From contig NZ_JASZYU010000003.1 of assembly GCF_030316825.1 (NCBI RefSeq), forward strand, positions 248,001 to 312,000: a stretch of DNA of 64,000 nucleotides, in the 5' to 3' direction. The stretch's first letter is position 1; each line of letters starts with the position of its first letter. A program made the translations under genes and the position numbers. Under the pieces are notes generated by a model. That model saw only the letters and a list, made by a program, of their open reading frames with translations, made no database searches and had not been told where the DNA came from. Source of the stretch: Variovorax fucosicus (lineage in GTDB: Bacteria; Pseudomonadota; Gammaproteobacteria; Burkholderiales; Burkholderiaceae_C). Of this stretch, positions 8,928 through 26,712 are shown one piece after another.

Positions 8928-8958
8928 TCATGAAGTCATTTTCTTTAGGAGTCCGTAG

Positions 8959-10602
8959 ATGCTGGGTTTGATGCAAGACCAACCGCTTTTGATCTCGTCG
9001 CTGATCGAGTTCGTCGAGCGCCACAACGGCGATGGCGAGATCGTTTCGCGCCGGGTCGAAGGCGACATTCACCGCACCACGTGGGGTGGAATCGCATCGC
9101 GTGCCCGGCAGGTGGCCAATGCGCTGGACGGCGAGCAGTTGCTCTTCAGCGACCGAATCGCCACGCTGGCCTGGAACGGCTATCGCCACCTGGAGCTGTA
9201 CTACGGCGTGAGCGGCAGCGGCCGCGTGCTGCACACCATCAATCCGCGGCTGCACCCTGACCAGATCGCCTGGATCGCCAACCATGCCGAAGACCAGATC
9301 CTGTGCTTCGACCTCACTTTCCTGCCGCTGGTGCAGGCGGTGCATGCCAAGTGCCCCATGATCCGAAAATGGATTGCACTGTGTGATGCCGACAAGCTGC
9401 CGGTCGACAGCGGCATTCCCAATCTCGTGAGCTACGAGAGCTGGATGGGCAAGCAGTCCGCCGACTACGACTGGCCCACCTTCGACGAGAACTCGGCCTC
9501 GAGCATGTGCTACACGAGCGGTACCACGGGCAACCCGAAGGCCGCGCTCTACAGCCACCGCTCGACCATGCTGCACGCCTACGCGGCGGCCTTGCCCGAC
9601 GTCATGCGCCTGTCGGCGCGCGACTCGGTGCTGCCGGTGGTGCCCATGTTCCACGTCAACGCCTGGGGCATTCCGTACTCGGCCGCACTCGTGGGTTGCA
9701 AGCTCGTGTTCCCCGGCCCGGCGCTTGACGGCAAGTCGGTGTTCGAGCTGATCGAATCCGAAGGCGTGACCTTCGCCGCCGGCGTGCCCACCGTGTGGCA
9801 GATGATGCTCGGCCACATGCAGGCTGGCGGCCTGAAGTTCAGCAAGCTCAACCGCACCGTCATCGGCGGCTCGGCCTGCCCGCCGGCCATGATCACTGCG
9901 TTCCAGCAGAAATTCAACGTTGAGGTGCTGCATGCCTGGGGCATGACCGAGATGAGCCCGCTGGGCACGCTGTGCACACTCAAGAACAAGCACCTGTCGC
10001 TGCCGCCCGATGCGCAACTGCAGATCCGCATGAAGCAGGGCCGCGCGATCTTCGGCGTCGACCTCAAGATCGTCGACGGCGACGGTAAGGAGCTGCCCTG
10101 GGACGGCAAGGCCTACGGCGACCTGCTGGTCAAGGGGCCGTGGATCGTCAAGGAATACTTCAAGGGCGAGGGCGGCGACCCGCTCATTCCCGACGAACAG
10201 GGCCGCGGCTGGTTCCCCACCGGCGACGTCGCCACCATCGATGCCGAGGGCTACCTGCAGATCACCGACCGCAGCAAGGACGTGATCAAGTCCGGCGGCG
10301 AATGGATCAGCTCGATCGAGATCGAGAACATCGCGGTCGCGCATCCGGCCGTCGCCCTGGCGGCTTGCGTCGGCGTGTTCCATCCCAAATGGGACGAGCG
10401 CCCGATCGTGGTGGTGGCGAAAAAGCCGGGCGGCGAAGTCACGCGCGAAGAACTGCTGCAGTTCTACGAAGGCAAGACCGCCAAGTGGCAGATCCCGGAC
10501 GACGTGGTCTTCGTCGAAGCCATTCCGCTCGGCGCCACAGGCAAGATCCTGAAGACCAAGCTGCGCGAGCAGCTCAAGGGCTACAAGTTGCCCGGCCTCT
10601 GA
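8959..10602 (+). CDS. Medium/long-chain acyl-CoA ligase (AMP-forming; DmdB/AlkK-like)
   Basis: This 547-residue adenylate-forming enzyme has the full motif set: the P-loop-like [23 protein letters not shown] (A5), [12 protein letters not shown] (A7), [18 protein letters not shown] (A8) and the catalytic lysine region [13 protein letters not shown]. It converts a carboxylic acid, ATP and CoA into acyl-CoA. Its closest style is the fatty-acid and 3-methylthiopropionate ligases, so medium or long chains are likely but not proven. AGGAG sits well before the ATG at 8959. It is the first enzyme gene of the transport and beta-oxidation block. Confidence 0.9.
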
Positions 10603-10608
10603 AACGCC

Positions 10609-10622
10609 CTACCGACCGGTAG
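10609..10622 (+). promoter_or_regulatory. 14-bp palindrome upstream of the Liv operon
   Basis: CTACCGACCGGTAG pairs six bases on each side of a 2-base centre. It lies just after the ligase stop and about 135 bases before the substrate-binding-protein gene. Its form suits a TetR-type dimer operator, but no TetR gene is in the window. Confidence 0.35.
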
Positions 10623-10755
10623 CATCGTCTGTCGCATGGGTGATAGAAACGACTTCGGTGCTGCCTTTCTTACGGGCATTCCCTGAGGGGGGGTCTAGTA
10701 AAGACTTGTACTCTCACCTCGCGTTCGAATACTGATGATCAGGAGACCGATTCCC

Positions 10756-11991
10756 ATGAAATTCACACTCAAATTTGTAGCCGCCGGCGTCATGATGGCC
10801 GCCGCTGCGGGTGCCCTCGCCCAGAAGGGCGAAACCGTCAAGATCGCCATGATCGAGGGGCTTTCGGGTCCGTTCGCCAATGTGGGGCAGAACCAGCTCA
10901 AGAGCTGGCAACTGATGGCCCAGGAACTGAGCGGCGCGAAGAATCCGGCCGGAGTCAAGTTCGAGATCGTCGGGATGGACAGCAAGAGCTCGCCGCAGGA
11001 AGCGCTGAATCTGCTGAAAGCCGCCAGCGACCAGGGCTTTCGCTACGTCACGCAGGGCAACGGATCCAATGTGGCCGTTCCGCTGGCCGATGCCGTCGCC
11101 AAACACAACGAGCGCAACCCGGGCAAGGAAATCGTCTACCTGAACTACGCCGCGGTCGATCCGGTGCTCACGAACGAGAAATGCAGCTTCGCGCACTTCC
11201 GCCTCGATGCCGACACCTCGATGAAGATGGCAGCGCTGACGGCGTTCATGAAGGACCAGCCCAAGATCTCGAAGATCTACCTGATCAACCAGAACTATTC
11301 GCACGGGCAGCAGGTCTCCAAGTTCTTCAAGGAAGGCCTGACACGCAACCGGCCGGATGCCAAGATCGTGGGCGACGACCTGCATCCGCTGGGGCAGGTC
11401 AAGGACTTCGCGCCCTACGTGGCCAAGATCAAGCAGTCGGGCGCCGACACCATCGTCACCGGCAACTGGGGTCAGGACATGACCCTGCTGATCAAGGCGC
11501 TGAACGATTCGGGCCTGAAGATTCCGATCTACGCGTACTACGCCGGCGTTTCCGGCACCCCGACGGCGCTGGCCGCGGGTGGCGAGCTGGAGGTCTATCA
11601 GATCGCCTACAACCACTCCAACTACACCGGCGAAATGGGCCGGCTGATGGCAGATTTCAAGAAGAAGTTCAACGACGACTTCTACACGTTCTCGATCTAC
11701 AACGGCGTCGTGGTTCTGGGCGAGGCGATGGCCAAGGCGAAGTCCACCGATCCGATGAAGGTCGCGGCTGCGATGGAAGGCCTGAAGTTCAAGGGATTCA
11801 ACGGCGACAGCGAAATCCGCAAGTCCGATCACCAGTTGCAGCAGGGGCTCTGGATCTCGAAGTGGCAGAAGGTCGACGCCAAGAACAAATACAGCGTCGA
11901 GAACACCGGCTATACCTTTGCACCGGTGAAATACCTCGAGCCCTACATCGCGAGCACGCCCACCAGCTGCGACATGAAGCGCCCGTTCTGA
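10756..11991 (+). CDS. ABC transporter periplasmic substrate-binding protein (LivK/Peripla_BP_6 type)
   Basis: This 411-residue protein has a signal peptide (MKFTLKFVAAGVMMAAAAGALA, cleavage before Gln) and the bilobed type I periplasmic-binding fold: VKIAMIEGLSGPFANVGQNQ at the mature N-terminus, YVTQGNGSNVAVPLADAV and IYLINQNYSHGQQV. I chose the ATG at 10756, which follows AGGAGACC, over an in-frame ATG seven codons upstream. The ligand cannot be read. The family binds branched-chain amino acids, amides, short peptides, and aromatic or fatty acids. The five following genes and the catabolic surroundings point to an acyl or aromatic acid or an acylated amino acid rather than only leucine. 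Confidence 0.9.
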   Translation: MKFTLKFVAAGVMMAAAAGALAQKGETVKIAMIEGLSGPFANVGQNQLKSWQLMAQELSGAKNPAGVKFEIVGMDSKSSPQEALNLLKAASDQGFRYVTQGNGSNVAVPLADAVAKHNERNPGKEIVYLNYAAVDPVLTNEKCSFAHFRLDADTSMKMAALTAFMKDQPKISKIYLINQNYSHGQQVSKFFKEGLTRNRPDAKIVGDDLHPLGQVKDFAPYVAKIKQSGADTIVTGNWGQDMTLLIKALNDSGLKIPIYAYYAGVSGTPTALAAGGELEVYQIAYNHSNYTGEMGRLMADFKKKFNDDFYTFSIYNGVVVLGEAMAKAKSTDPMKVAAAMEGLKFKGFNGDSEIRKSDHQLQQGLWISKWQKVDAKNKYSVENTGYTFAPVKYLEPYIASTPTSCDMKRPF

Positions 11992-12011
11992 GGCGCACCA
12001 CAACACAGCAG

Positions 12012-12047
12012 GCCGGCGAGTGACGGGAGTCGCTCACCGGCTTTTTT
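12012..12047 (+). terminator. Rho-independent terminator between binding-protein and permease genes
   Basis: GCCGGCGAGTGAC (12012-12024) pairs with GTCGCTCACCGGC (12029-12041) around a GGGA loop, with one mismatch and one G-T pair, followed by six T. It lies 20 bases after the binding-protein stop and 40 before the permease start. The likely effect is partial termination, giving more binding protein than membrane subunits. Confidence 0.75.
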
Positions 12048-12087
12048 GTACACCGGCTTTTGCGAGCGCCAACAACGAACAAATACC

Positions 12088-13035
12088 GTGGAATTCTTTG
12101 TCATCTCCTTGCTGAACGGGCTCAGCTACGGGCTGTTGTTGTTCATGCTGAGTTCGGGCCTGACCCTGATCTTCAGCATGATGGGCGTGCTCAATTTCGC
12201 GCACACCAGCTTCTACATGCTCGGCGCCTATTTCGCGTACACGATCTCCGGCGTGCTGGGTTTCTGGCCGGCATTGGTGATCGCGCCCCTGGTGGTCTTC
12301 GTGCTCGGCGCGCTGTTCGAACGCTACAGCCTGCGACGCGTTCACAAGTTCGGACATGTGCCCGAACTGCTCGTCACCTTCGGCCTGTCCTATCTGATCC
12401 TGGAGCTCGTGCAGTTGATCTGGGGGCGGGCAACGGTTCCGTACGGCCTGCCGGAGCAACTGCAGGGTCCGCTGTTCTCGCTGTACGGCACGCAGTTCCC
12501 CAAGTCGCGCTCGTTCATCATGCTGCTCGCCATGCTGATGCTGCTGTCGGTCTGGCTGCTGCTGACGCGCACCCGTATCGGGCTGGTGATACAGGCTGCG
12601 CTGACTCATCCCGAAACGGTGGAGGCACTGGGCCACAACGTGCCGCGTATCTTCATGCTGGTGTTTGGCGGCGGCGCTGCGCTCGCCGCGCTGGCCGGCG
12701 TGATCGGCGGCAACACCTATGTGACCGAGCCGGCCATGGCGGGCGCGGTGGGATCCATCGTGTTCGTGGTCGTGGTGGTCGGTGGCATGGGTTCGCTCGC
12801 GGGTGCTTTCCTGGCGTCGCTGCTCATCGGCGTGCTGCAGACCTTCGCCGTGGCGATCGACCAGTCGATGGCGTCGGGCCTCCAGGCGATCGGCATCCCC
12901 GTGACCGACAAGACCTTTGGCTACGAACTGCTGCAGCTCAGCGTCGCACAGGTGGCGCCGATCCTGCCGTACCTGCTGCTGGTGCTGATCCTCATATTCC
13001 GGCCCAAGGGTCTCCTCGGCAAGCGGGAAGGTTGA
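12088..13035 (+). CDS. livH: Branched-chain amino-acid-type ABC transporter permease (LivH family)
   Basis: This 315-residue polytopic inner-membrane protein starts at GTG 12088, giving the family-typical MEFFVISLLNGLSYG; an upstream TTG at 12046 falls inside the terminator T-run and is rejected. Diagnostic features are LTLIFSMMGVLNFAH, TRTRIGLVIQAAL followed by TVEALGHNV, and VVVVVGGMGSLAGAF. With LivM it forms the membrane channel of the importer. The gene is followed by livM after a single base. Confidence 0.92.
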   Translation: MEFFVISLLNGLSYGLLLFMLSSGLTLIFSMMGVLNFAHTSFYMLGAYFAYTISGVLGFWPALVIAPLVVFVLGALFERYSLRRVHKFGHVPELLVTFGLSYLILELVQLIWGRATVPYGLPEQLQGPLFSLYGTQFPKSRSFIMLLAMLMLLSVWLLLTRTRIGLVIQAALTHPETVEALGHNVPRIFMLVFGGGAALAALAGVIGGNTYVTEPAMAGAVGSIVFVVVVVGGMGSLAGAFLASLLIGVLQTFAVAIDQSMASGLQAIGIPVTDKTFGYELLQLSVAQVAPILPYLLLVLILIFRPKGLLGKREG

Positions 13036-13036
13036 G

Positions 13037-14335
13037 ATGACCTCTACCAACTACTACCGTTTCAAGCCCTGGAACATCGGGCGCGTGCTGATCTGGACCT
13101 TGTTCGCGCTGATGCTGATCGTCTCGCCGCTGATCTTTCGCAGCAGCCTGGCGCTCACCATGCTGTCGCAGATGGGTTACCTGACCATCATCTGCCTGAG
13201 CTACAACATCCTGTTGGGGCAGGGCGGCATGCTGAGCTTCGGGCACGCCGTCTACACCGGGCTGGGCGCGTTCGTTGCCGTCCACGCGATGAACCTGGCC
13301 GCCGCCAAGGGGGGCGTTCCGATTCCGCTGGTGGCGATACCGCTGGTGGGCGGCCTTGCAGGCTTGCTGTTCGCGATCCTGCTGGGTTATGTCACGACCA
13401 AGAAGTCCGGCACGACCTTCGCCATGATCACGCTGGGCATCGGCGAGCTGGTGGCCGCCATGTCGCTGATGTTTCCGGGGTTCTTCGGCGGCGAGGGCGG
13501 CGTGACGACCAACCGCACTTACGGTTCGTTCTTCGGATGGACATTCGGGCCGCAGATCCAGGTGTACTACCTGATCGCCGCCTACTGCTTCATCTGCACC
13601 GCGCTGATGTTCGCGTTCACCGGCACGCCCCTGGGGCGCATGCTCAATGCGGTGCGCGACAACCCCGAGCGGGTGGAGTTCATCGGCTACGACACGCAGC
13701 GGGTGCGCTACCTCGGCTTCATCATCGCGGGCTTTTTCGCGGGCATCGGGGGGGCGCTGGCTTCCATCAACTTCGAGATCGTCAACGCGTCCGACAGCTT
13801 GAGCGGCCTGCGTTCCGGTGGCTACCTGCTGTTCACCTTCCTCGGCGGCGCCACCTTTTTCTTCGGCCCCATCATCGGCGCCGTGCTGCTGGTGCTGGCG
13901 TCGGTGCTGTTGTCGGAAATGACCAAGGCCTGGCTGCTCTACCTGGGGCTGGTGTTCCTGTTCATGGTGATGTACGCGCCGGGCGGCGTGGCCAGCCTGA
14001 TCATGATGAACCTGCGGGTTGCCCGGTTCGGCAAGTTCAACCGCCTTTGGGGCCTCTATGGCGGGCTGCTCCTGACCGGTGCGGTCATGGTCGTTGCCGC
14101 CGCCGCCATCGTCGAAATGGTCTATCACATGCAGCTCAATGCGGCCCTCGGTGACACCGTCAACTTCATGGGCGTCGAGCTCGACACGACCCGTGCCACC
14201 AGCTGGATCGGCGTCGCCGCGCTGCTGGCCATCGGCGTGGCGCTGGTCGAAGTGGTTCGCCGGCGCTTCGCGCGGGTCTGGGGGCAGGCGCAGGAAGAAA
14301 TAGAAGCCGAGATCAAACGGCGGGAGACGGCTTGA
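13037..14335 (+). CDS. livM: Branched-chain amino-acid-type ABC transporter permease (LivM family)
   Basis: This 432-residue protein has about ten membrane segments and the LivM motifs LSYNILLGQGGMLSFGHA near residue 55, TPLGRMLNAVRDNPERVEFIGYD, and LLFTFLGGATFFFGPIIGA. It is longer than a typical LivM (about 330-420) because of an extra C-terminal region: two more hydrophobic segments (about 340-360 and 390-405) and a charged tail. It pairs with LivH. Its stop overlaps the livG start (TGATG), indicating translational coupling. Confidence 0.92.
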   Translation: MTSTNYYRFKPWNIGRVLIWTLFALMLIVSPLIFRSSLALTMLSQMGYLTIICLSYNILLGQGGMLSFGHAVYTGLGAFVAVHAMNLAAAKGGVPIPLVAIPLVGGLAGLLFAILLGYVTTKKSGTTFAMITLGIGELVAAMSLMFPGFFGGEGGVTTNRTYGSFFGWTFGPQIQVYYLIAAYCFICTALMFAFTGTPLGRMLNAVRDNPERVEFIGYDTQRVRYLGFIIAGFFAGIGGALASINFEIVNASDSLSGLRSGGYLLFTFLGGATFFFGPIIGAVLLVLASVLLSEMTKAWLLYLGLVFLFMVMYAPGGVASLIMMNLRVARFGKFNRLWGLYGGLLLTGAVMVVAAAAIVEMVYHMQLNAALGDTVNFMGVELDTTRATSWIGVAALLAIGVALVEVVRRRFARVWGQAQEEIEAEIKRRETA

Positions 14336-15102
14336 TGCCTTACGCACTGGAATTGAAGGCTCTGCGCAAGAGCTTCGGCAAGACCGACATCATCCGCGGC
14401 GTCGACCTCGCCGTGAGCGCGGGCGAGCGCATCGCGGTGATCGGCCCCAACGGCGCCGGCAAATCGACGCTGTTCAACCTGATCAGCGGCCGGCTCATGC
14501 CGAGCAGCGGCGAGGTGCTGCTGAACGGCCAGCGCATCGACGGCAAGCAGCCCTACGAGATCAACCGGCTGGGCCTGTCGCGCAGCTTCCAGATCACCAA
14601 CATCTTTCCCAAGCTCAGCGTGTTCGAGAACCTGCGCTGCGGCGTGCTGTGGAGCCTGGGCTACAAGTACACCTTCCTGCGCTTTCTCTCCAACCTCGAC
14701 GATGCCAACGAGCGCACCGAAGAACTGGTGCGCCAGGTCGGCCTCGAGAAGAAGCGCGATGTGCACGCGGTCAACCTGACCTATGCCGAGCAGCGCGCGC
14801 TCGAGATCGGCGTGACCATCGCCGGCGGCGCCGGCGTGATCCTGCTCGACGAGCCGACGGCCGGCATGAGCAAGACGGAAACCTCGCATTTCATCGCGCT
14901 GATCAAGCAGGTGACCATCGGCAAGACGCTGCTCACGGTCGAGCACGACATGGGCGTCGTGTTCGGGCTGGCCGACAAGATCGCCGTGGTGGTTTATGGC
15001 GAGGTTATCGCCTTCGACACGCCCGATGCGGTGCGTGCCAACGCCAAGGTGCAGGAGGCCTATCTGGGCTCCTCGGTGGCAGATGCGCAGGCGGGGCACT
15101 GA
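14335..15102 (+). CDS. livG: Branched-chain amino-acid-type ABC transporter ATP-binding protein (LivG family)
   Basis: This 255-residue cytoplasmic ATPase has an intact Walker A (GPNGAGKST), the LivG-type SRSFQITNIFPKLSVFENL, a signature variant LTYAEQRALEIG and Walker B ILLDEPTAGMS, then the switch histidine in TVEHDMGVVF. I use the ATG at 14335; the TTG one codon earlier is less likely. It powers transport with LivF. The gap to livF is one base. Confidence 0.93.
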   Translation: MPYALELKALRKSFGKTDIIRGVDLAVSAGERIAVIGPNGAGKSTLFNLISGRLMPSSGEVLLNGQRIDGKQPYEINRLGLSRSFQITNIFPKLSVFENLRCGVLWSLGYKYTFLRFLSNLDDANERTEELVRQVGLEKKRDVHAVNLTYAEQRALEIGVTIAGGAGVILLDEPTAGMSKTETSHFIALIKQVTIGKTLLTVEHDMGVVFGLADKIAVVVYGEVIAFDTPDAVRANAKVQEAYLGSSVADAQAGH

Positions 15103-15103
15103 T

Positions 15104-15799
15104 ATGTTGAAACTTCAGGACATTCACGGCTACTACGGCAAGAGCCATGTGCTGCACGGCGTTTCGTTCGAGGTCGGGCAGGGCGAGATCGTCGCGCTGC
15201 TGGGACGCAACGGCTCCGGCCGGTCGACCACGGCCAAGGCCATCATGGGCCTGGTGCATGCCGAAGGGCAGATCCACTGGAAAGGCCAGGACATCCTGCG
15301 CAAGAAGGCCTACGAGATCGCGCACCTGGGCATCGGCTACGTGCCCGAGAACCGCGACATCTTTCCCAAGCTCACGGTGTCGCAGAACCTGCTGCTGGGC
15401 CAAAAGGGCGCCGGCAAGGGCAGCCGCTGGACCTTCAAGGACATGTACGAGATGTTCCCGCGGCTCAAGGAGCGCGAGCACACCGAGGCCGGCGTGCTTT
15501 CGGGCGGCGAGCAGCAGATGCTCACCCTGTGCCGCACCCTGATGGGCGACCCTGACCTGATCATCATCGACGAGCCGACCGAAGGCCTGGCGCCCAAGAT
15601 CGTCGAACTGGTCGGCCAGTACCTGCAAACGCTCAAGGCCAAGGGCATCTCGGTGCTGCTGATCGAGCAGAAGCTCACCATCGCCATGCACATCTCCGAC
15701 CGTGCGCTGGTGATGGGGCACGGCAGCATCGTGTTCGACGGCACACCCGACAGCCTTCGGGCCGATGCGGCCACCCGCAAAGAGTGGCTCGAAGTCTGA
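15104..15799 (+). CDS. livF: Branched-chain amino-acid-type ABC transporter ATP-binding protein (LivF family), Walker A Lys replaced by Arg
   Basis: This 231-residue ATPase starts at ATG 15104 (MLKLQDIHGYYGKSHVLHG). It has the LivF signature VLSGGEQQMLTLCRTL, Walker B LIIIDEPTEGLAPKIV and the switch histidine replaced by glutamine in LIEQKLTIAMH, which is normal for LivF. Walker A reads GRNGSGRST: the invariant lysine is arginine (codon CGG). This could weaken nucleotide binding at this half-site and make the importer asymmetric, or it may be a subfamily trait. It is the last gene of the transporter set. Confidence 0.9.
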   Translation: MLKLQDIHGYYGKSHVLHGVSFEVGQGEIVALLGRNGSGRSTTAKAIMGLVHAEGQIHWKGQDILRKKAYEIAHLGIGYVPENRDIFPKLTVSQNLLLGQKGAGKGSRWTFKDMYEMFPRLKEREHTEAGVLSGGEQQMLTLCRTLMGDPDLIIIDEPTEGLAPKIVELVGQYLQTLKAKGISVLLIEQKLTIAMHISDRALVMGHGSIVFDGTPDSLRADAATRKEWLEV

Positions 15800-15830
15800 C
15801 GGCTTCGGTCGTTGTCCCGGCAGCGACTGG

Positions 15831-15864
15831 GGCGTTTTGCGCGGTCATGCAAAACGCCTAGAAT
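15831..15864 (+). promoter_or_regulatory. Perfect 10-bp inverted repeat overlapping a promoter-like site upstream of the fadB/J-like gene
   Basis: GGCGTTTTGC (15831-15840) and GCAAAACGCC (15849-15858) form a perfect inverted repeat with an 8-base spacer, directly followed by TAGAAT (15859-15864), a fair -10 box. TTTTGC with an 18-base spacer is only a weak -35. There is no T-run, so an operator overlapping a promoter is more likely than a terminator. Confidence 0.45.
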
Positions 15865-15984
15865 TTCACAAAAAAGAACACTCGTGCTTTTTGGAGGCAA
15901 CCGGGGGTGCGCAATGCGCCGCCGGTGTCCTGCGCTCTCTCATCGGCTCTTTCATTTTTCAATTCCCTACTTAAGGAACGCAGC

Positions 15985-18087
15985 ATGACGGCTGAATACA
16001 AAGTGCTCGGCGATGTCGCCGTGATCACCATGACCAATCCCCCGGTCAACGGTCTCGGCCACTCGACCCGCATCGGCATCACCGACGGCCTGGCCAAGGC
16101 CAACAGCGACGCAGCCGTCAAGTCGATCGTTCTCACCGGCGCCGGCAAGGCGTTCTCGGGCGGCGCCGACATCAAGGAATTCGGCACGCCCAAGGCGCTG
16201 CAGGATCCCAATCTGCTGAGCGTGATCCTGGCGCTCGAAGCCTCGCCCAAGCCGATCGTGGCGGCGATCCATTCGGTCTGCATGGGCGGCGGGCTCGAGC
16301 TGGCCATGGGCTGCCACTATCGCGTGGTCTCGCCCGGCACCAGCGTCGCGCTGCCCGAAGTCAAGCTGGGCCTGCTGCCTGGCGCCGGCGGCACGCAGCG
16401 TCTGCCGCGCGTGCTGGGCGTCGAGACCGCGCTGAACATGATCGTCAGCGGCGAGGCCGTCAAGAGCGAACTGCTGGCTTCGGCCCCGGGGCAAAAGCTG
16501 TTCGACAAACTGGCCGCCTCGCCCGAGTCGGTGTTCGACGAAGCGGTCGAATTCGCCAAGTCGGTGGCGGCGAAGGGCGGCGAATTGCCGCTGGTGCGCA
16601 ATCTGCCGTGCAAGCACCCGCAGGGCGATGCCTACTTCCAGTTCGCCAAGAACATGGTCGGCGGCATGTCGAAGAACTACCCGGCACCGCTCAAGTGCGT
16701 CGATGCCGTGCAGGCCGCCACCAAGATGAAGTTCGACGAAGGCATGGCCGAGGAGCGCCGCCTGTTCACCGCGCTGATGTTCACACCCGAATCGCTGTCG
16801 CTGCGCCATCTGTTCATGGCCGAACGTGCGGCCAGCAAGATCCCCGACGTGGCGGACGACACGCCGCAGCGCGCCGTCAAGTCGGTCGGCGTGATCGGCG
16901 CCGGCACCATGGGCGGCGGCATTTCGATGAATTTCCTGAACGCCGGTATCCCGGTCAAGATCCTCGAGATGAAGCAGGAGGCGCTCGACCGCGGCGTCGC
17001 CACGATCAAGAAGAACTACGAAGCCCAGGTCAAGAAGGGCAAGCTCAAGCAGGACAAGTACGACCAGCGCATGGCCTTGCTGACCACCACACTGAGCTAC
17101 GACGACCTGAAGGACTGCGACCTGATCATCGAAGCCGTGTTCGAAGAGCTCGGCGTCAAGGAAGCGGTGTTCAAGGAGCTGGATCGCGTGGCCAAGCCCG
17201 GCGCCATCCTGGCCTCCAACACCTCGACGCTCGACGTCGACAAGATCGCCGCCTTCACCAAGCGTCCGCAGGACGTGGTCGGCATGCACTTCTTCAGCCC
17301 GGCCAACGTGATGAAGCTGCTCGAAGTGGTGCGCGGCAAGGCAACTGCCAAGGACGTGCTGGCCACGGTGATGGCGATTGGCAAGAAGATCAAGAAGACC
17401 TCGGTGGTCTCGGGCGTGTGCGACGGCTTCATCGGCAACCGCATGATCGAGCAGTACAGCCGCCAGGCCGGCTTCCTGCTGGACGAAGGCGCCACGCCGC
17501 AGCAGGTCGACAAGGCCGTCGAGAAGTTCGGCTTCGCCATGGGCCCGTTCCGCATGGGCGACCTGGCCGGCAACGACATCGGCTGGGCCATCCGCAAGCG
17601 TCGCGCCACCGAGCGCGCCGACATGAAGTACAGCCGCACGGCCGACAAGCTCTGCGAACTGGGGCGCTTCGGCCAGAAGACCGGCGCCGGCTGGTACGAC
17701 TACCAGGCTGGCAAGCGCGATGCGATCCCGAGCCAGGTCGTGCTCGACCTGATCGAGAAGCACCGCAAGGACGAAGGCATCACGCCGCGCAAGATCAGCG
17801 ACGAAGAGATCGTGCAGCGCCTGGTGTACGCGCTGGTCAATGAAGGCGCGCACATCCTCGAAGACGGCATCGCCAGCAAGTCGGGTGACATCGACATGGT
17901 GTACCTGACCGGCTACGGCTTTCCGATCTTCCGCGGCGGCCCGATGCACTACGCCAGCCAGGTTGGCCTCTACAACGTGTCCGAGTCGATGAAGCGCTTT
18001 GCGAAGAACCCGCACGACGACGCGAGCTTCTGGCAGCCGGCACCGCTGATCCAGAAGCTGGTGGCCGAAGGCAAGAACTTCAGCTGA
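15985..18087 (+). CDS. Fused enoyl-CoA hydratase / 3-hydroxyacyl-CoA dehydrogenase (FadB/FadJ-like)
   Basis: This 700-residue enzyme performs the hydration and NAD-dependent oxidation steps of beta-oxidation. Residues 1 to about 190 form a crotonase domain with the oxyanion segment [10 protein letters not shown] and catalytic glutamates in [10 protein letters not shown] and [14 protein letters not shown]. Residues from about 295 form the dehydrogenase: the Rossmann motif [11 protein letters not shown], catalytic [16 protein letters not shown] and GFIGNRM, then the C-terminal helical repeats. I chose ATG 15985, preceded by AAGGAACG. It follows the Liv genes after 185 bases that contain an operator-like repeat and precedes the M20 hydrolase gene. 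Confidence 0.93.
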
Positions 18088-18107
18088 AGCCGAGACAGGC
18101 CGCAACC

Positions 18108-19577
18108 GTGATCAAACGCGTTTTTCTCGCGCTGCTGCTGGTGCTTGTGGCACTGGCGGCTGCGGTTGCGGTCAACACGCTGCGCACGCCGTCGCGCCAG
18201 GTCGCGGTGGCGCCCGCGCCCCGTCTCGCCATCGATGCGCAGGCCGCCGCCAAACGGCTGGCCGGCGCGATCCCGATGCGCACGGTGTCGAGCTTCGACG
18301 ATGCCAAGGGCAACGACGCCGAGTTCGACAAGCTGCACGCCTACCTCGCGCAGCAGTTCCCCAAGGTGCATGCCACGCTCAAGAAGGAAGTGGTCGGCCA
18401 GAAGGCGCTGCTCTACACCTGGCCGGGCACCGACCCGGCGGCCAAACCGATCGCGCTCATGGCGCACCAGGACATGGTGCCGATCGCGCCGGGCACCGAG
18501 AAGGCCTGGACGGTCGACCCCTTTGCCGGCGAGATCAGGGACGGCTACATCTGGGGCCGCGGCACGCTCGACAACAAGAGCAACCTGTTCGCCCAGATGG
18601 AAGCCGTCGAGCTGCTGATCGGCAGCGGCTTCCAGCCAAAACAGACCGTCTACCTCGTGATGGGCGACGACGAGGAGGTCGGTGGCCTGCGCGGCGCGCG
18701 CCCCATTGCCGAACTGCTGAAGTCGCGCGGCGTCGAGCTCGACTGGGTGCTCGACGAAGGCCTGCTGGTGCTCGACGGCGTGCTGCCGGGCCTTGGCAAG
18801 CCGGCTGCACTGATCGGCCTGGCCGAGAAGGGCTACGCGACGTTCTTCCTCTCGTTCGACACTGCGCCCGGCCATTCCTCGATGCCGCCGCAACACAGCG
18901 CGATCGGCAGCATGAGCGCCGCGCTGGCCCGGCTCGAGGCCAACCAGATGCCGGGCGCCATCCAGGGCGTTGCGGGCGAGATGTTCGGCACGCTGGCACC
19001 CGAGATGGGCGGCATCAACCGCGTGATGCTGTCCAACCTCTGGCTCACCGGCCCACTGGTGGCGGGTCAGCTCGCGAAGAGCCCGAGCAGCAACGCGATG
19101 CTGCGCACCACCACCGCGTTGACCATCGTGCGCGCCGGCAACAAGGACAACGTGCTGCCGGGCCGGGCCGAGGCGGCCGTCAATTTCCGCGTGCTGCCGG
19201 GCGACACGCTGGCCAGCGTCGAAGCGCATCTGCGCAAGTCGTTGGGCAACGACGCGATCCAGGTCAAGGCCTACCCCGGCAACTCCGAGCCCTCGCCGGT
19301 GTCGTCGATCGACAGCACCGGCTACCGCGCAGTGCAGCAGGCGGTGCGCCAGGTGTTCCCCGACGCCGTGGTCGCGCCGGGCCTGATGACCGCGGCCACC
19401 GATTCGCGCCACTTCAGCCTGGTGAGCAGGGCGGTGTTCCGCTTCTCGCCGATCCGCGTGAAGAGCGAGGATCTGCCGCGCTTTCATGGCAACAACGAGC
19501 GCGTGTCGATCGCCAATTACGCCGAGATGATCGGCTTCTATCACCAGCTGCTGCGCAACACGGCGCAGCCGGACTGA
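18108..19577 (+). CDS. M20 family metallohydrolase (PM20D1-like), membrane-anchored or exported
   Basis: This 489-residue protein starts at GTG 18108, 20 bases after the fadB/J-like gene. An N-terminal hydrophobic segment (residues 3-22) acts as signal anchor. The M20 two-zinc site is intact: His120 and Asp122 in LMAHQDMVP, Asp155 in [10 protein letters not shown], the catalytic Glu pair at 189-190 in DDEEVGG, and a C-terminal histidine in DSRHFS. The size and motifs fit the PM20D1 or yeast CPS1 branch; animal PM20D1 reversibly hydrolyses N-fatty-acyl amino acids. A substrate of that type would explain its place between beta-oxidation genes (inference). An ordinary carboxypeptidase is the alternative. 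Confidence 0.85.
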
Positions 19578-19614
19578 CCCTTCCTTCTTTTCCTCTTTCT
19601 CAAAGGACATCACC

Positions 19615-20790
19615 ATGACCAGCGCCGTCATCGTCTCCACCGCCCGCACCCCGCTCGCCAAGAGCTGGAAAGGCGCTTTCAACATGACGCACGGCGCCAC
19701 GCTCGGCGGCCATGCTGTGCAGCATGCCGTGCAGCGGGCCGGCATCGACCCGGCATCGGTCGACGACGTGATCATGGGTTGCGCCACGCCCGAAGGCGCC
19801 ACCGGTTCGAACATCGCGCGCCAGATCGCACTGCGCGCCGGCCTGCCGGTGACGACCTCGGGCATGACCATCAACCGCTTCTGCTCGTCGGGCCTGCAGA
19901 CCATCGCCACCGCAGCCCAGCGCATCATCGCGGGCGAGGGCGACGTGTATGTGGCCGGCGGCGTCGAGAGCATTTCGTGCGTGCAGAACGAAGCCAACAA
20001 GCACATGCTGGCCGACCCCTGGCTGGTGAAGCACAAGCCCGAGATCTACTGGAACATGCTGCAGACGGCAGAACAGGTTGCCAAGCGCTACAACATCGGC
20101 CGCGACGCCATGGACGAGTACGGCGCCGCCAGCCAGCAGAAGGCCACCGCCGCGCTCGAAGCCGGCCGCTTCAAGGACGAGATCGCACCGATCACCGTGC
20201 TGGCCGGCGTGGCCGACCCGGTGATGGGCCTGCGCACCAAGGAAGTGACGATCGAGAACGACGAGGGCATCCGCGCCGGCACCACCAAGGAAGGCATCAG
20301 CGGCATCCGCTCGGCCATGCCCGGCGGTCTGATCTCGGCCGGCAATGCCAGCCAGTTCTCGGACGGTGGCGGCGCCTGCGTGCTGGTCGACGAGAAGTAC
20401 GCGCAGCAAAAGGGCCTGAACCCAATCGGCCGCTTCCTCGGCTTTGCGGTGGCCGGCTGCGAGCCCGACGAAATGGGCATCGGCCCGGTCTTCGCCATTC
20501 CCAAGGTGCTCAAGCGCCTGGGCCTCACGGTCAACGACATCGACCTGTGGGAACTCAACGAAGCCTTCGCTGTGCAGGTGATCTATTGCCGCGACAAGCT
20601 CGGCATCCCGGCCGACCGCCTGAACGTGGACGGCGGCGCCATCGCCGTGGGCCACCCCTACGGCGTGAGCGGCCAGCGCCTGACCGGCCATGCGCTCATC
20701 GAAGGCAAGCGCCGCGGCGCGAAGAAGGTGCTGGTCACGATGTGCATCGGCGGCGGCATGGGTGCCGCGGGCGTGTTCGAAGTTCTTTGA
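19615..20790 (+). CDS. Acetyl-CoA C-acyltransferase (3-ketoacyl-CoA thiolase)
   Basis: This 391-residue thiolase cleaves 3-ketoacyl-CoA to acetyl-CoA and a shortened acyl-CoA. The acyl-accepting cysteine is Cys90 in [10 protein letters not shown], the catalytic histidine is His347 in GHPYGVSG (the usual GHPLGxSG with Leu replaced by Tyr), and the second cysteine is Cys377 in [14 protein letters not shown] precedes the ATG. With the FadB/J-like protein it completes the cycle started by the acyl-CoA dehydrogenases of this block. Confidence 0.94.
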
Positions 20791-20795
20791 CTCTC

Positions 20796-20880
20796 CCCCA
20801 GGCTGCGGCGCACTGCGTGTCGCCTCCGCCAACCCCCTTCCGGGGGCAACGCCAGCAGCCCGGCGAAGCCGGTTCTGCGG
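20796..20880. repeat. Double-hairpin GC-rich intergenic repeat-like element
   Basis: Two perfect short hairpins lie in tandem: CCCCC-ttcc-GGGGG (20833-20846) and CCGGC-gaa-GCCGG (20860-20872), within a stretch that reads ctgcggcgcactgcgtgtcg on its left side. From memory, elements of this form are dispersed in Comamonadaceae intergenic regions. Only one copy is in this window. It separates thiolase from the next acyl-CoA dehydrogenase gene and may end or stabilise transcripts. Confidence 0.45.
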
Positions 20881-20928
20881 CGTTCCACGAATTTTTGCCG
20901 GCTGCCGGCGTTGTGATCGAGACCGACC

Positions 20929-22779
20929 ATGAGCTTGCGTTCCACCCTCGACTTCCTGCTTTACGACTGGCTCGATGCCGCGTCGCTGAGCCAGCGTGAA
21001 CGCTTTTCGGACCATTCGCGCGAAACCTTCGACGCGGTGCTCGACACCTGCGAGCGCATCGCGCGCGAAAAGTATGCGCCGGCCAATCGCATCGTCGATA
21101 CGCAGGAGCCACACTTCGACGGCGAGAAGGTGATCCTGCCGCAGGCCACGCACGACGCGCACAAGGCTTTCGTCGAGTCCGGCATGCTGAGCGCCGCGCA
21201 GGACTACGACATCGGCGGCATGCAGTTGCCCTACACGCTGCAGGCAGCGGCCAACAGCTTCTTCGCGATGGCGTCGGTCAGCATCGGGTCGGGCATGCTG
21301 ACGAGCGGCAATGCCAACCTGCTGATGGTGCACGGCACCGGGACGCAGAAAGAGGTGTTCGCCAAGAACGAATTTTCGGGCCGCTGGGCCGGCACCATGT
21401 GCCTGTCGGAGCCGCAGGCCGGCTCGTCGCTGAGCGACGTGGCCACGCGCGCCGTGCCCGATGATGCCGACTACCAGGACGACCCGCTCGGCCCGCGCTA
21501 TCGCCTGACCGGCAACAAGATGTGGATCTCGTCGGGCGACCATGAACTGACCGAGAACATCGTGCACATCGTGCTCGCCAAGATCCCCGACGCGAACGGC
21601 AAACTCGTGCCGGGCACGCGCGGCATCTCGCTGTTCATCGTGCCCAAGCGCATGGTGAACACCGAGGGCGAGCTCACCGGCGAGCGCAACGACGTGGCGC
21701 TCGCGGGCCTCAACCACAAGCTGGGCTGGCGCGGCACCACCAACACGCTGCTGAACTTCGGCGAGGGCAAGTACCCGGTCGACGGCAAGGCCGGGGCCGT
21801 GGGCTACCTGGTCGGCGCGCCCGGCAAGGGCCTGCACTGCATGTTCCACATGATGAACGAGGCCCGCATCGGCGTGGGCACGGCGGCGGCCATGCTCGGC
21901 ATGGCGGGTTACTACGCCTCGCTCGACTACGCCAAATCGCGGCCGCAGGGCAGGGCGGTGCAGAAGGCCGATGCCGGCGGCGGCGTGGTCAAGGATTCGG
22001 CCAGCCCGCAGGTTCGCATCATCGAGCATGCCGACGTGCGCCGCATGCTGCTCGCGCAGAAGGCCTACTGCGAAGGCGCGCTGGCGCTGGAGCTGTATTG
22101 CGCGCGGCTGGTCGACGTCCAGAAAACCGGCAATGCCGAGGAAGCCGACGATGCCCGCCTGCTGCTCGAAGTGCTCACGCCCATCGCCAAGAGCTGGCCC
22201 AGCGAGTGGTGCCTGGAAGCGAACTCGCTCGCGATCCAGATCCACGGCGGCTACGGCTACACGCGCGATTTCCCGGTGGAGCAGTACTGGCGCGACAACC
22301 GCCTGAACATGATCCATGAAGGCACGCACGGCATCCAGGCCGCCGACCTGCTGGGCCGCAAGGTGCTGATGGAAAACGGCCGCGGCCTGAAGCTGCTGGC
22401 GGGCCGCATCACCGACACCATCGCGCGCGCCGCGCAGGTGCCCGAGCTGGCGCCGCATGCCCGGGCGCTGGGCGAAGCGCTGCAACGCCTGGGCAGCGCG
22501 ACGCAGGCCGCCTGGTCGACCGGCGACCCGCAGGCCGCACTGGCCAATGCCGTGCCGTACATGCAGGCTTTCGGCCACACTGTGCTGGCCTGGATCTGGC
22601 TCGACGTGGCCGCGCGCGCGTTGGCGCTCGACGGCGCAAAATCCAACCCGTCCACCGCCGGAAGAACGGGCGCTGCAGCCTATTTCTTCCATTACGAACT
22701 GCCCAAGATCGGCGCCTGGCTCAACGTGGTGGAAAGCCGCGACGCGACCTGCACCGAACTGTCTGAGGAAGCGTTCTGA
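20929..22779 (+). CDS. Acyl-CoA dehydrogenase (large, DmdC-like)
   Basis: This 616-residue FAD enzyme is longer than classical acyl-CoA dehydrogenases (about 380-400) because of an extra C-terminal helical domain, as in the DmdC/FadE12 group. Motifs include MCLSEPQAGSSLSDV (flavin contact), ITGNK-type LTGNKMWISSGDHE, IQIHGGYGYTRDFPVEQYWRD, and the likely catalytic glutamate in MIHEGTHGIQ. It introduces the alpha-beta double bond into acyl-CoA. The stop codon overlaps the next small gene's ATG (TGATG). Confidence 0.92.
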   Translation: MSLRSTLDFLLYDWLDAASLSQRERFSDHSRETFDAVLDTCERIAREKYAPANRIVDTQEPHFDGEKVILPQATHDAHKAFVESGMLSAAQDYDIGGMQLPYTLQAAANSFFAMASVSIGSGMLTSGNANLLMVHGTGTQKEVFAKNEFSGRWAGTMCLSEPQAGSSLSDVATRAVPDDADYQDDPLGPRYRLTGNKMWISSGDHELTENIVHIVLAKIPDANGKLVPGTRGISLFIVPKRMVNTEGELTGERNDVALAGLNHKLGWRGTTNTLLNFGEGKYPVDGKAGAVGYLVGAPGKGLHCMFHMMNEARIGVGTAAAMLGMAGYYASLDYAKSRPQGRAVQKADAGGGVVKDSASPQVRIIEHADVRRMLLAQKAYCEGALALELYCARLVDVQKTGNAEEADDARLLLEVLTPIAKSWPSEWCLEANSLAIQIHGGYGYTRDFPVEQYWRDNRLNMIHEGTHGIQAADLLGRKVLMENGRGLKLLAGRITDTIARAAQVPELAPHARALGEALQRLGSATQAAWSTGDPQAALANAVPYMQAFGHTVLAWIWLDVAARALALDGAKSNPSTAGRTGAAAYFFHYELPKIGAWLNVVESRDATCTELSEEAF

Positions 22780-23012
22780 TGAACGCCGGAAGCTACATGC
22801 CCCAACTGAATTCAAGCAAGCCACCCAAGCCCCACGCCCGGCTCGAAAACTGGATCTGGATCCTGATCTACGGCGGCCTGTTCCTCGTGATCCTCGGCCT
22901 CGCCAGCGGCCGCACCGACGCCACGATCGGCTGGCTGCTGGCGATCCCCGGCGCGGTGGCGGCCGCGGTCGGCATCGTGCTGATCTACGTGCGCTCGCGC
23001 CTGCCTTCATGA
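22779..23012 (+). CDS. Small two-helix membrane protein of unknown function
   Basis: This 77-residue protein has a short polar N-terminus and two predicted membrane helices (about 26-43 and 50-71) separated by the loop SGRTDATIG, ending in basic RSRLPS. I do not recognise a family. It is translationally coupled on both sides: its ATG overlaps the acyl-CoA dehydrogenase stop and its stop overlaps the DUF2252 start. This suggests a real gene tied to one of those proteins, perhaps as a membrane anchor or assembly partner (inference). Confidence 0.7.
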   Translation: MNAGSYMPQLNSSKPPKPHARLENWIWILIYGGLFLVILGLASGRTDATIGWLLAIPGAVAAAVGIVLIYVRSRLPS

Positions 23013-24403
23013 CCACCCGCCGGCCGCGCCCGACGCCACTGCCGTCGCCCGCGGAGCGGCAGGCTTTCGGCCGCGGCCAGCGCAAGCGCTTCGAGCGCGA
23101 GCAACTCGCGCAGGCGCCCGTGCCGAACGCCGCGGGGCGCGACCCGCTCGGCTGGCTCAAGGCCTCGAACCGCGGCCGCGTGCCGGAGCTGGTGGCGGTG
23201 CGCCATGGCCGCATGCTGGCCAACCCGCTGGCCTTTTACCGGGGCGCCGCCAGCCTGATGGCGAACGACCTGGCAAGCCTGCCGCACAGCGGTGTCATGA
23301 CACAGCTTTGCGGCGACGCCCATCTTGCGAACTTCGGTTTTTTCGCAAGCCCGGAACGCGCGCTGGTGTTCGACATCAACGACTTCGACGAAACGCTGCA
23401 AGGCCCCTTCGACTGGGATCTGCGCCGCCTGGCCACCTCGTTCGTGGTGGCGGCGCGCGAGCTCGGCTTCAAGCCGCGAGTCGGCCGCGATGCGGTCGAC
23501 CGGCTGGTCGATGCCTACCGCGAGCGCATGCGCCGCTTCGCCCGCATGGACACGCTGGAAGCCTGGTACCTGCGCCTCACTTCGCAGACGCTGCTGAAGC
23601 TAGGGGCCGAAGACGAGGCCGAGCTGGCCGTCATCAAGAAGGCGCGCCACAGCACCGCGCGCGTGTTCGCGCAGGAGGCCACGGAGGTAGTCGACGGCCG
23701 CCTGATGATTCGCGACCAGCCGCCGTTCGTCTACCACGACGCGGCTGCCACGCAACGCGAGATCCGCCGTTTTCGCGCCGGGCTGCCGGCCTTTCTGGCG
23801 CAGTACCGCGCCAGCCTCCCGCCGGAACGGCAACGCCTGTTCGACCGCTACGAGCTGCACGACGTGGCCGTGCTCACTCCGGGCGTTGGTTCGGTCGGGC
23901 GGCGCTGCTTCTTGCTGCTGCTGGTGGCCGACCAGCGCCATCCGCTGTTCCTGCAATGCAAGGAGGCCGGCGCCTCGGTCCTCGAAGCGCACCTTGGCGC
24001 GTCGTCGGCCGGCTCGCCCGGCCAGCGCGTCGTGGAAGGCCAACGGCTGGCACAGGCCGCCAGCGACGTGTTCCTGGGCTGGGCCGACGTGCCGGGTGCC
24101 AGCGGTTTCTACGTGCGGCAGCTGCGCGACATGAAAGCCGCCTACAAGCTCGAGGATTTCACCCCGGCCGACCTGGTCGAGTTCGCCGAAGCCTGTGGCT
24201 ACGGCCTGGCACGCGCACATGCCAAGGGCGGCGACGCCTGGGCCATCACCGGCTACCTCGGCCGCTCGAAACGCTTCAACACGGCGCTGGCCGGCTTTGC
24301 AGAGGCCTATGCCGATGTGAACCTGGCCGACTGGCAGCAGCTTGCTGCCGCCGTGACCGCGGGCCGCTTTGCCGCTTTCGTGACAGAGGACAAGGCCGCC
24401 TGA
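23009..24403 (+). CDS. DUF2252 family protein (kinase-like fold)
   Basis: This 464-residue protein matches DUF2252. Diagnostic segments are the FYRGAASLMANDLA block near residue 75, LCGDAHLANFGFFASPE, the acidic FDINDFDETLQGPFDWDLRRLATSF and a late YGLARAHAKGGD. GDAHLANFG followed by NDFDE resembles the catalytic loop of aminoglycoside-phosphotransferase-like kinases, so a small-molecule kinase role is plausible, though unproven. The start at 23009 overlaps the preceding stop. It has no obvious link to beta-oxidation apart from operon position. Confidence 0.85.
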   Translation: MTTRRPRPTPLPSPAERQAFGRGQRKRFEREQLAQAPVPNAAGRDPLGWLKASNRGRVPELVAVRHGRMLANPLAFYRGAASLMANDLASLPHSGVMTQLCGDAHLANFGFFASPERALVFDINDFDETLQGPFDWDLRRLATSFVVAARELGFKPRVGRDAVDRLVDAYRERMRRFARMDTLEAWYLRLTSQTLLKLGAEDEAELAVIKKARHSTARVFAQEATEVVDGRLMIRDQPPFVYHDAAATQREIRRFRAGLPAFLAQYRASLPPERQRLFDRYELHDVAVLTPGVGSVGRRCFLLLLVADQRHPLFLQCKEAGASVLEAHLGASSAGSPGQRVVEGQRLAQAASDVFLGWADVPGASGFYVRQLRDMKAAYKLEDFTPADLVEFAEACGYGLARAHAKGGDAWAITGYLGRSKRFNTALAGFAEAYADVNLADWQQLAAAVTAGRFAAFVTEDKAA

Positions 24404-24445
24404 CGGCCGTTCGATCCCATTCCTTTCTCAATCTTCGGAGACACC

Positions 24446-25243
24446 ATGAACCCCCGCACCGTCCAGCAACTGTTCGACCTCACCGGCAAGACCGCGCTCA
24501 TCACGGGCGGCTCGCGCGGCCTTGGCCTGCAGATGGCGCATGCGCTCGGCGAAGCCGGCGCAAAGATCATGCTGAGTTCGCGCAAGGCCGACGACCTGGA
24601 GCAGGCTGCGGCCGAGCTGCAGGCGGCCGGGATCGATGCCCGCTGGATCGCCGCCGACTGCTCGAAAGAAGAAGACACGCGCCGCCTGGCCGACGAGACG
24701 CTGGAGCGCATGGGCGCGGTCGACATCCTGGTCAACAACGCGGGCGCCAGCTGGGGCGCGCCGGCCGAGAGCCACCCGGTCGAGGCCTGGGACAAGGTGA
24801 TGAACCTCAACGTGCGCGGCTACTTCATCCTGTCGCAGCAGATCGCCAACGCCTACATGATCCCGAAGAAGACCGGCCGCATCATCAACATCGCGTCGAT
24901 CGCCGGCCTCAACGGCAACCCGCCCGAGATGAGCACGCTGGCCTACAACACCTCGAAAACGGCGGTGATCGGTTTCACCCGGACGCTCGCGGCCGAATGG
25001 GGCAAGTACAACATCAACGTCAACGCGATCTGCCCGGGCTTCTTCATGACCAAGATGGCGGCCACGCTGATCAAGTCGATCGGCGAGGAAAAGATGGCCA
25101 ACGCCGCGCCGCTCAGGCGCCTGGGCGACGACGAAGACCTGAAGGGCCTGACGCTGCTGTACGCGAGCGATGCCGGCAAGCACATCACCGGCCAGTGGCT
25201 GGCGGTGGACGGTGGCGTAAGCGTGGTTCTGGGGGCTGCGTGA
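24446..25243 (+). CDS. SDR family oxidoreductase (3-hydroxyacyl/alcohol dehydrogenase type)
   Basis: This 265-residue classical short-chain dehydrogenase has the cofactor motif GGSRGLG near residue 18, NNAG, a catalytic Ser in NIASIAG and the YNTSK active-site motif, then NAICPGFFMTKM. An arginine after the first glycine-rich strand (SSRKADD) suggests NADP(H). Its stop overlaps the next gene's GTG start, coupling it to a hotdog thioesterase. A role on hydroxy- or ketoacyl intermediates fits, but the substrate is not readable. Confidence 0.9.
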   Translation: MNPRTVQQLFDLTGKTALITGGSRGLGLQMAHALGEAGAKIMLSSRKADDLEQAAAELQAAGIDARWIAADCSKEEDTRRLADETLERMGAVDILVNNAGASWGAPAESHPVEAWDKVMNLNVRGYFILSQQIANAYMIPKKTGRIINIASIAGLNGNPPEMSTLAYNTSKTAVIGFTRTLAAEWGKYNINVNAICPGFFMTKMAATLIKSIGEEKMANAAPLRRLGDDEDLKGLTLLYASDAGKHITGQWLAVDGGVSVVLGAA

Positions 25244-25674
25244 GCCTTTCATTCGGTGTCGCGATCCCGTTCGTCGACCACCTAGGCTTCACGCTCGAGC
25301 GCTTCGAGAATGGCGAGTCGGAGCTGCACTACACGGCGCGGCCCGAGCACCTCAACAGCTTCTTCGTCACGCACGGCGGCGCCTGCATGACGCTGATGGA
25401 CGTGACCATGGCCACGGCGGCGCGCAGCGTGCAGCCGGATATGGGCGTGGTCACCATCGAGATGAAGTCCAGCTTCATGCAGCCGGCACGCGGCCCCCTG
25501 GTGGGCAAGGGCCGGCTGCTGCACCGCACTGCCACCATGGCCTTTACCGAAGCGAAGATCTACGACAGCGCCGGGCGCCTTTGCTCCCACAGCACCGGCA
25601 CCTTCAAGTACGTCAAGCGCCTGCCGGTTGGCGGCACCGAAGTGCACGCCATGCAGCCGCTCTCCACCGACTGA
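25240..25674 (+). CDS. PaaI/YbgC-type hotdog thioesterase
   Basis: This 144-residue protein starts at GTG 25240, overlapping the SDR stop by four bases. It shows the hotdog thioesterase pattern: FTLERFENGESELHY, the helix with HGGACMTLMDVTMATAA (the motif holding the catalytic acid), and VVTIEMKSSFMQPARGPLVGKG. It would hydrolyse acyl- or aryl-CoA to relieve CoA trapping or release product. It sits between the SDR and the MDR reductase in the same plus-strand run. Confidence 0.88.
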   Translation: MSLSFGVAIPFVDHLGFTLERFENGESELHYTARPEHLNSFFVTHGGACMTLMDVTMATAARSVQPDMGVVTIEMKSSFMQPARGPLVGKGRLLHRTATMAFTEAKIYDSAGRLCSHSTGTFKYVKRLPVGGTEVHAMQPLSTD

Positions 25675-25695
25675 TTTTTCAAGAGACAAACCACC

Positions 25696-26712
25696 ATGCC
25701 AGTCAACAAGCAGATCCATCTCGACAACCGCCCCGAAGGCGAAGCCACCACCGGCAACTTCAAGCTGGTGACCGGCGAAACCCCTGCGCTGCAGGACAAC
25801 CAGGTGCTGGTGCGCCACCACTACATGAGCCTCGACCCGTACATGCGCGGCCGCATGAACGACTCGAAGAGCTATACCGCCAACCAGCCCGTCGGCCAGG
25901 TGTTCCAGGGCGGCACGGTCGGCGAGGTGGTCGAGAGCCGGCACCCCAGATATGCCGTTGGCGACAAGGTCGTCGGCTTCGGCGGCTGGCAGGAATACAG
26001 CGTGGTCGATGCCTCGCTGCCCGGTGCGCTCAAGAAGGTCGACACCACCCATGTGCCGCTGTCGCACTACCTCGGCGCGGTCGGCATGCCGGGCGTGACG
26101 GCGTGGTACGGCCTGGTCAAGATCATCGCGCCGAAAGAGGGCGAAACCGTCGTCATCACCGCCGCCTCGGGCGCGGTCGGCAGCGCCTTCGGTGCGCTGG
26201 CCAAGGCGCGCGGCTGCCGCGTGGTCGGCATTGCAGGCGGGCCGGACAAGTGCAAGTATGTGACCGACGAGCTCGGCTTCGACGCGTGCATCGACTACCG
26301 CGCGCACCCGGACGTGAAGAGCATGAGCACGGCGCTGAAAGAAGCCTGCCCCGATGGCATCGACGGCTATTTCGAAAACGTCGGCGGCTACATCTTCGAC
26401 GCGGTGCTGCTGCGCTGCAATGCGTTTGCGCGCGTGGCGTTGTGCGGAATGATCGCCGGCTACGACGGCGCGCCGATGCCGCTCGCCAACCCGGCGCTGT
26501 TCCTGATCAACCGCATCAAGCTCGAAGGCTTTATCGTGAGCGAGCACATGGAAGTCTGGCCCGAGGCGCTGGCGGAGCTCGGCAAGCTGGTGGCCACCGG
26601 CAAGCTCAGGCCGCGCGAGTCGATCGCGCAGGGCATCGAGGCGGCGCCGGAGGCCTTCCTGGGCCTGCTCAAGGGCAAGAACTTCGGCAAGCAATTGGTC
26701 AAGCTGATCTAG
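25696..26712 (+). CDS. NADP-dependent MDR oxidoreductase (CurA/leukotriene-B4-12-HD-like)
   Basis: This 338-residue protein belongs to the zinc-free medium-chain reductases that reduce the double bond of alpha,beta-unsaturated carbonyls with NADPH. Motifs include MSLDPYMRGRM (typical of this group), GMPGVTAWYGL, the Rossmann loop ITAASGAVGSAFGALAKARG and GYFENVGG. Zinc-binding cysteines of alcohol dehydrogenases are absent. A purine-rich sequence precedes the ATG. It could process enone by-products or a specific unsaturated substrate of this pathway. Confidence 0.9.
   Translation: MPVNKQIHLDNRPEGEATTGNFKLVTGETPALQDNQVLVRHHYMSLDPYMRGRMNDSKSYTANQPVGQVFQGGTVGEVVESRHPRYAVGDKVVGFGGWQEYSVVDASLPGALKKVDTTHVPLSHYLGAVGMPGVTAWYGLVKIIAPKEGETVVITAASGAVGSAFGALAKARGCRVVGIAGGPDKCKYVTDELGFDACIDYRAHPDVKSMSTALKEACPDGIDGYFENVGGYIFDAVLLRCNAFARVALCGMIAGYDGAPMPLANPALFLINRIKLEGFIVSEHMEVWPEALAELGKLVATGKLRPRESIAQGIEAAPEAFLGLLKGKNFGKQLVKLI

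Follow-up and report, generated by a model that had tools for sequence, protein, structure and literature searches.

We analysed a 64,000-nucleotide stretch of the Variovorax fucosicus genome (contig NZ_JASZYU010000003.1, positions 248,001 to 312,000 of the forward strand; hereafter the window), in which a gene for an M20-family hydrolase lies between a fadB/fadJ-like gene and a thiolase gene. The FadB-M20-thiolase arrangement recurs across genera and is not due to chance, and M20 is an optional gene inside an older fadB-thiolase pair. With the case for and against close to balance, we propose that M20 is an accessory member of a FadP-type fatty-acid regulon and would hydrolyse amino acids that carry a long acyl chain on their nitrogen, or closely related amide-linked lipids. 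A first-pass annotation of the window had suggested catabolism of N-acyl amino acids at this locus. Genomic context strengthened this reading, with the substrate a prediction. The proposed tie of M20 to beta-oxidation gained support from the fixed place of the gene between fadB and the thiolase in many genera, together with an operator-like palindrome common to other fatty-acid genes.

In the window, the M20 gene starts 20 bases 3' of the end of fadB and ends 37 bases 5' of the thiolase start, and the coordinates agree with the spacing first described. Conservation of this arrangement was followed in four overlapping locus samples (a family draw with one genome per genus, an order draw, the genus, and named loci), with M20 counted as present in the family draw at E 1e-60. 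In the family draw of 120 genomes, M20 was present in 26, including the genome of the window. FadB, M20 and thiolase genes were contiguous and co-oriented in 19 of the other 25; in one locus the contig ended short of fadB, and M20 lay elsewhere in five. The order draw yielded M20 in 10 of 199 other genomes, three linked (all from one genus) and seven unlinked, two of the latter on short contigs with mainly the downstream side visible. Within the genus, 56 of 61 genomes carried M20, and linkage was found in 29 of 29 examined loci besides the window. Among the named loci 60 of 62 were linked, the other two being cut by contig ends. By this co-oriented place, kept in 19/25, 3/10, 29/29 and 60/62 loci, M20 belongs to the fadB-thiolase operon. 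Median gaps across the samples were 19-39 bases (fadB to M20) and 28-47 bases (M20 to thiolase), and the position was kept among linked loci as M20 identity to the query dropped to 53-54%. The first-pass annotation had left linkage across Comamonadaceae to be checked, and the family draw bore it out; M20 beside a thiolase in one strain only is excluded, since linkage occurred in many genera. In a phylum draw, the NCBIfam model that recognises this enzyme (NF006113) matched in 26 of 398 genomes at 1e-90, with five matches above its cut-off.

Loci without M20 were drawn from 40 family genomes lacking the gene at the same threshold; a close thiolase was present in 32, and 30 loci were examined. 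In all 30, fadB preceded the thiolase, which indicates that M20 is an optional insertion into an older pair. The fadB-thiolase gap measured 9-161 bases in 27 of these loci and 642-679 bases in three. A small gene of about 210 codons, HD-domain-like by eye and similar in both cases, occupied the gap in two of the genomes (L223:647-1291 and L230:712-1393), so the gap recruits accessory genes; in the 652-base gap of the third long-gap locus (L236), no clear gene was seen. Since M20 is absent from 94 of the 120 family-draw genomes, beta-oxidation is independent of it. A tree of 61 M20 proteins, which included 2 of the 29 genus loci and 3 of the 62 named loci and omitted the fragments L055, L056 and L076, required five changes of the linkage label compared to a mean of 20.3 for shuffled labels. 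Linkage on this protein tree is clustered and was gained or lost several times, and it forms no single simple clade.

Upstream of fadB we found a conserved palindrome. Its core, GAACACTCGTGCT, stood before fadB in 50 of the 53 named loci holding the fadB start. A related palindrome, GAACGNNCGTTC, stood before fadB in 13 of the 19 linked loci from other genera (family and order draws), with variants in three. Beyond these 13, no further exact palindrome occurred in the 19 loci, which together span 365,235 bases. The fadB-M20 gap in the window is too short for a promoter because it spans only 20 bases, and a probable fadB promoter was read by eye from conservation alone. A sigma-70 consensus scan of positions 8600-26000 gave no promoter-like site.

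A first operator pattern with fixed spacing to the -10 element matched only once in four genomes because this spacing varies, and the palindrome alone was used instead. Searched as GAACGNNCGTTCNWTT across four related whole genomes, it occurred at 13 distinct places, compared to none for the reversed control. The genes behind these places were fadB (four), TetR/acyl-CoA dehydrogenase (three), etfB-etfA (one), GDSL or secretory-lipase-like genes (three) and chalcone-isomerase-like genes (two); eight proteins of seven loci were confirmed by Pfam and the remainder assigned by likeness. A looser pattern, applied to the genome of the window, yielded seven places compared to four for the control. 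An exact site lay before fadB and a one-mismatch site before etfBA. Of five two-mismatch sites, one matched the palindrome as found in other genera and stood ahead of a TetR/acyl-CoA dehydrogenase pair, and four looked like chance matches. The chalcone-isomerase-like protein (PF16036), found behind the palindrome in two genera (L271, L266), looks secreted and may belong to the regulon as a lipid-binding protein.

In Comamonadaceae, a predicted regulator of fatty-acid degradation is the TetR protein FadP, according to the accessible part of the source (PMC5343134). The palindrome upstream of fadB is a putative FadP-type operator, with FadP as the candidate regulator. The FadP regulon consists of TetR-controlled fatty-acid degradation genes (PMC5343134, same part), and the palindrome here precedes fadB, etfBA and the TetR/acyl-CoA dehydrogenase pair.

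The M20 protein matched NF006113 (PRK08262, M20 family peptidase) at full length, over residues 1-487 (858.8 bits; cut-off 503), a model whose name carries neither substrate nor pathway. Its Pfam domains are Peptidase_M20 (PF01546) and M20_dimer (PF07687), the lid/dimerisation domain. In an alignment of 50 rows, out of the 61 sequences in the tree set, H120, D122, D155, E189, E190, D216, E217 and H460 were invariant and H256 was retained in 49 rows; the two-zinc site that had been called intact is thus upheld in its metal and catalytic residues. The predicted structure (predicted local distance difference test score 94.2, predicted template-modelling score 0.90) matched DapE and carnosinase chains (DapE 4ppz: Z 32.5, root-mean-square deviation 2.3, 366 aligned), and human aminoacylase-1 (1q7l, E 7.9e-15) was the best PDB match by sequence. 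The first 26 residues of the model formed one hydrophobic helix. A hydrophobic N-terminal stretch was present in 48 of 50 rows, in accord with the signal anchor noted earlier, and a lipobox in none. An N-T-x-R-like sequence after the helix was retained in most Burkholderiales rows (by eye). We take the helix to be an uncleaved inner-membrane anchor, with the catalytic domain probably in the periplasm, because this sequence stays after the helix. Named relatives at 75-87% identity came mostly from Variovorax, with Xenophilus, Pseudacidovorax and Xylophilus besides. The window's genome held five other M20 matches, all short alignments at no more than 41% identity, and no second close copy.

Animal PM20D1, an N-fatty-acyl-amino acid synthase/hydrolase of the M20A group, belongs to the same peptidase family and has the same types of active-site residues. 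Beyond family and residue types, the two enzymes may be close as well. PM20D1 was absent from the PDB and fold match lists, which is no evidence against kinship. The animal enzyme is described as secreted in the part of the source available (PMC7145423). The M20 enzyme here is bacterial, probably membrane-anchored and placed in a beta-oxidation operon. Among bacterial M20A aminoacylases (MsAA, SamAA and SmAA), the metal and catalytic residues of MsAA match those of M20 in type and spacing (PMC11511702, in part). These enzymes were compared by the published residue list, and no beta-oxidation operon context was found for them in the accessible text. PJ15_1540 of Acinetobacter, considered as a possible M20 relative from an ochratoxin lead, was dropped, as it is described as a D,D-carboxypeptidase of penicillin-binding-protein architecture. 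Both animals and several bacterial phyla produce N-acyl amino acids, as far as the accessible parts of two sources state (PMC7145423; PMC12479983). In the open-licence literature we found no report that connects an M20 enzyme to FadB and thiolase (the primary FadP paper may list the gene), and no bacterial pathway for eating N-acyl amino acids described as a unit. The individual parts are known; the M20-FadB-thiolase combination and its regulation look undescribed.

N-acyl amino acids suit M20 chemistry, the amide standing beside a free carboxylate, and they suit the genomic setting too. As we infer from sequence, M20 would be co-transcribed with fadB and the thiolase gene under FadP. Tethered to the inner membrane, with the catalytic domain on the periplasmic side, the enzyme would most likely run in the direction of hydrolysis and split amino acids bearing an N-linked long acyl chain, or closely related amide-linked lipids, into the fatty acid and the amino acid. 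An acyl-CoA ligase would activate the released acid, and FadB, thiolase and acyl-CoA dehydrogenase would degrade it. M20 would act on amide-linked fatty acids as the counterpart of the secreted lipase-like enzymes behind the same palindrome, which would act on esters. A further proposal, that Comamonadaceae possess a dedicated conjugate-feeding route with a bacterial PM20D1 counterpart in the fadB-thiolase operon, controlled by a fatty-acid regulator together with secreted lipases, is tentative, and we place it slightly below an even chance. If true, N-acyl amino acids would regularly supply carbon in soil and the root zone, a function would be suggested for a bacterial M20 family named only 'peptidase', and such enzymes could serve as a source of enzymes for acyl-amino-acid surfactants.

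Several observations weigh against this assignment. The closest solved structures are of DapE, carnosinase and aminoacylase-1 type and do not point to lipid. The gene is unlinked, beside varied neighbours, in 5 of 25 family and 7 of 10 order relatives, and 94 of 120 family-draw genomes lack it at E 1e-60. Two of the 30 M20-less loci (L223, L230) carry another gene between fadB and the thiolase, so the gap may simply tolerate insertions. The palindrome is missing from the three linked loci outside the family, and most of the seven looser sites in the window's own genome may be chance matches because the control gave four. This genome also encodes two more FadB-like proteins (47% and 33% identical), and with these present the FadB-M20-thiolase locus need not be the principal fatty-acid operon of the genome.

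In the main rival explanation, M20 would be an ordinary peptidase of the periplasm, a dipeptidase or a carboxypeptidase comparable to yeast carboxypeptidase S, that is only carried along in an expressed fatty-acid operon; the fadB-thiolase gap would be a site that tolerates insertions and has been inherited by descent. The closest folds, those of desuccinylases and dipeptidases, agree with it, as do the other gene in the gap of M20-less loci, the genomes without M20 and the two other FadB-like proteins. So do the unlinked relatives: a survey of 30 neighbouring proteins at 18 of their loci, some outside Burkholderiales, gave varied genes and no recurring context (the survey omitted L137, L139 and L146-L150, 7 of 33 loci, and also L043, L056, L072, L075, L142 and L151). 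Against the peptidase, the position persists in at least 20 genera while the protein falls to 53-54% identity and many genera lack the gene, and the operon's palindrome precedes lipase-like genes too. We regard this rival as unlikely, though more likely than the others. A few of the surveyed neighbours were lipid- or CoA-linked (PhyH, CoA-transferase III and Mpo1-like).

In a second, improbable alternative, M20 would hydrolyse quorum signals (ring-opened acyl-homoserine lactones) or membrane lipids (of lyso-ornithine type) as part of their turnover, and beta-oxidation would be the sink for the acyl chain. The window's genome encodes two PF13444 proteins that may make N-acyl amino compounds and are possible endogenous sources of them: an acyltransferase (L289) that is OlsB-like (ornithine N-acyltransferase) by eye, and a LuxI-like synthase by eye (L290:1234-1809, minus strand) with a divergent LuxR-like gene nearby. 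One distant M20 relative (L134, 7049-8542) starts 16 bases after a gene for a penicillin-amidase-family acylase (PF01804), which also fits turnover. However, no linkage of M20 to PF13444 genes was seen, and known acyl-homoserine lactone acylases are N-terminal nucleophile hydrolases, according to the available part of PMC5474475. Turnover overlaps the amide-lipid hydrolysis that we propose, and the substrate is what differs. A reverse or two-way reaction in the cell, in which M20 would join excess fatty acid to amino acids in the way described for the animal PM20D1 synthase/hydrolase, would accord with an operon predicted to be under fatty-acid control, yet we consider it very improbable, as a catabolic operon favours hydrolysis, though direction is unreadable from sequence.

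The first-pass annotation had also placed M20 in one plus-strand run with an acyl-CoA ligase and a Liv-type importer, the latter taking up the amino acid or the conjugate. The shared strand was confirmed. A single transcript for the Liv genes and fadB need not follow, because about 185 bases containing the conserved palindrome lie between them. A Liv ATPase gene stood directly 5' of fadB in 48 of 50 named loci (mostly Variovorax), in 8 of 15 assessable linked family-draw loci and in one of three order-draw loci. The importer was rejected as a general partner on these family and order counts; outside the genus it is not a conserved neighbour, and the case for its part in uptake is weak.

Table 1. 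Coordinates of the M20 gene, its neighbours and associated elements in the window.
Feature	Position	Strand	Details or basis
M20 hydrolase open reading frame	18108-19577	+	489 aa, GTG start
Hydrophobic helix at the N-terminus (residues 2-26), probably an uncleaved membrane anchor	18111-18185	+	model and alignment
fadB/fadJ-like gene (enoyl-CoA hydratase and 3-hydroxyacyl-CoA dehydrogenase), ATG start	15985-18087	+	PF00378, PF02737, PF00725
Putative fadB promoter/operator: -10-like TAGAAT (15859-15864) and near-palindrome AAAAAGAACACTCGTGCTTTTT (15871-15892)	15859-15892	+	conservation
Thiolase (acetyl-CoA C-acyltransferase)	19615-20790	+	NF005494, 776.4 bits (cut-off 615)
Acyl-CoA dehydrogenase with C-terminal PF12806 domain, 3' of thiolase	20929-22779	+	Pfam
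Acyl-CoA ligase, upstream, inconstant neighbour	8959-10602	+	NF005426, 1001.6 bits (cut-off 822)
Liv-type ABC importer (binding protein, two permeases, two ATPases), upstream	10735-15799	+	library matches, first permease excepted

Three further features of the window lie around this locus. Upstream of the acyl-CoA ligase gene, positions 6994-8841 encode a probable lipoprotein carboxylesterase (PF00135). Between the acyl-CoA dehydrogenase gene and a short-chain dehydrogenase/reductase (SDR) gene, positions 22779-24403 hold a small open reading frame for a hydrophobic protein of 77 residues and a gene for a DUF2252 protein (PF10009). Downstream on the same strand, an open reading frame at 25240-25674 is PaaI-type thioesterase-like by eye.
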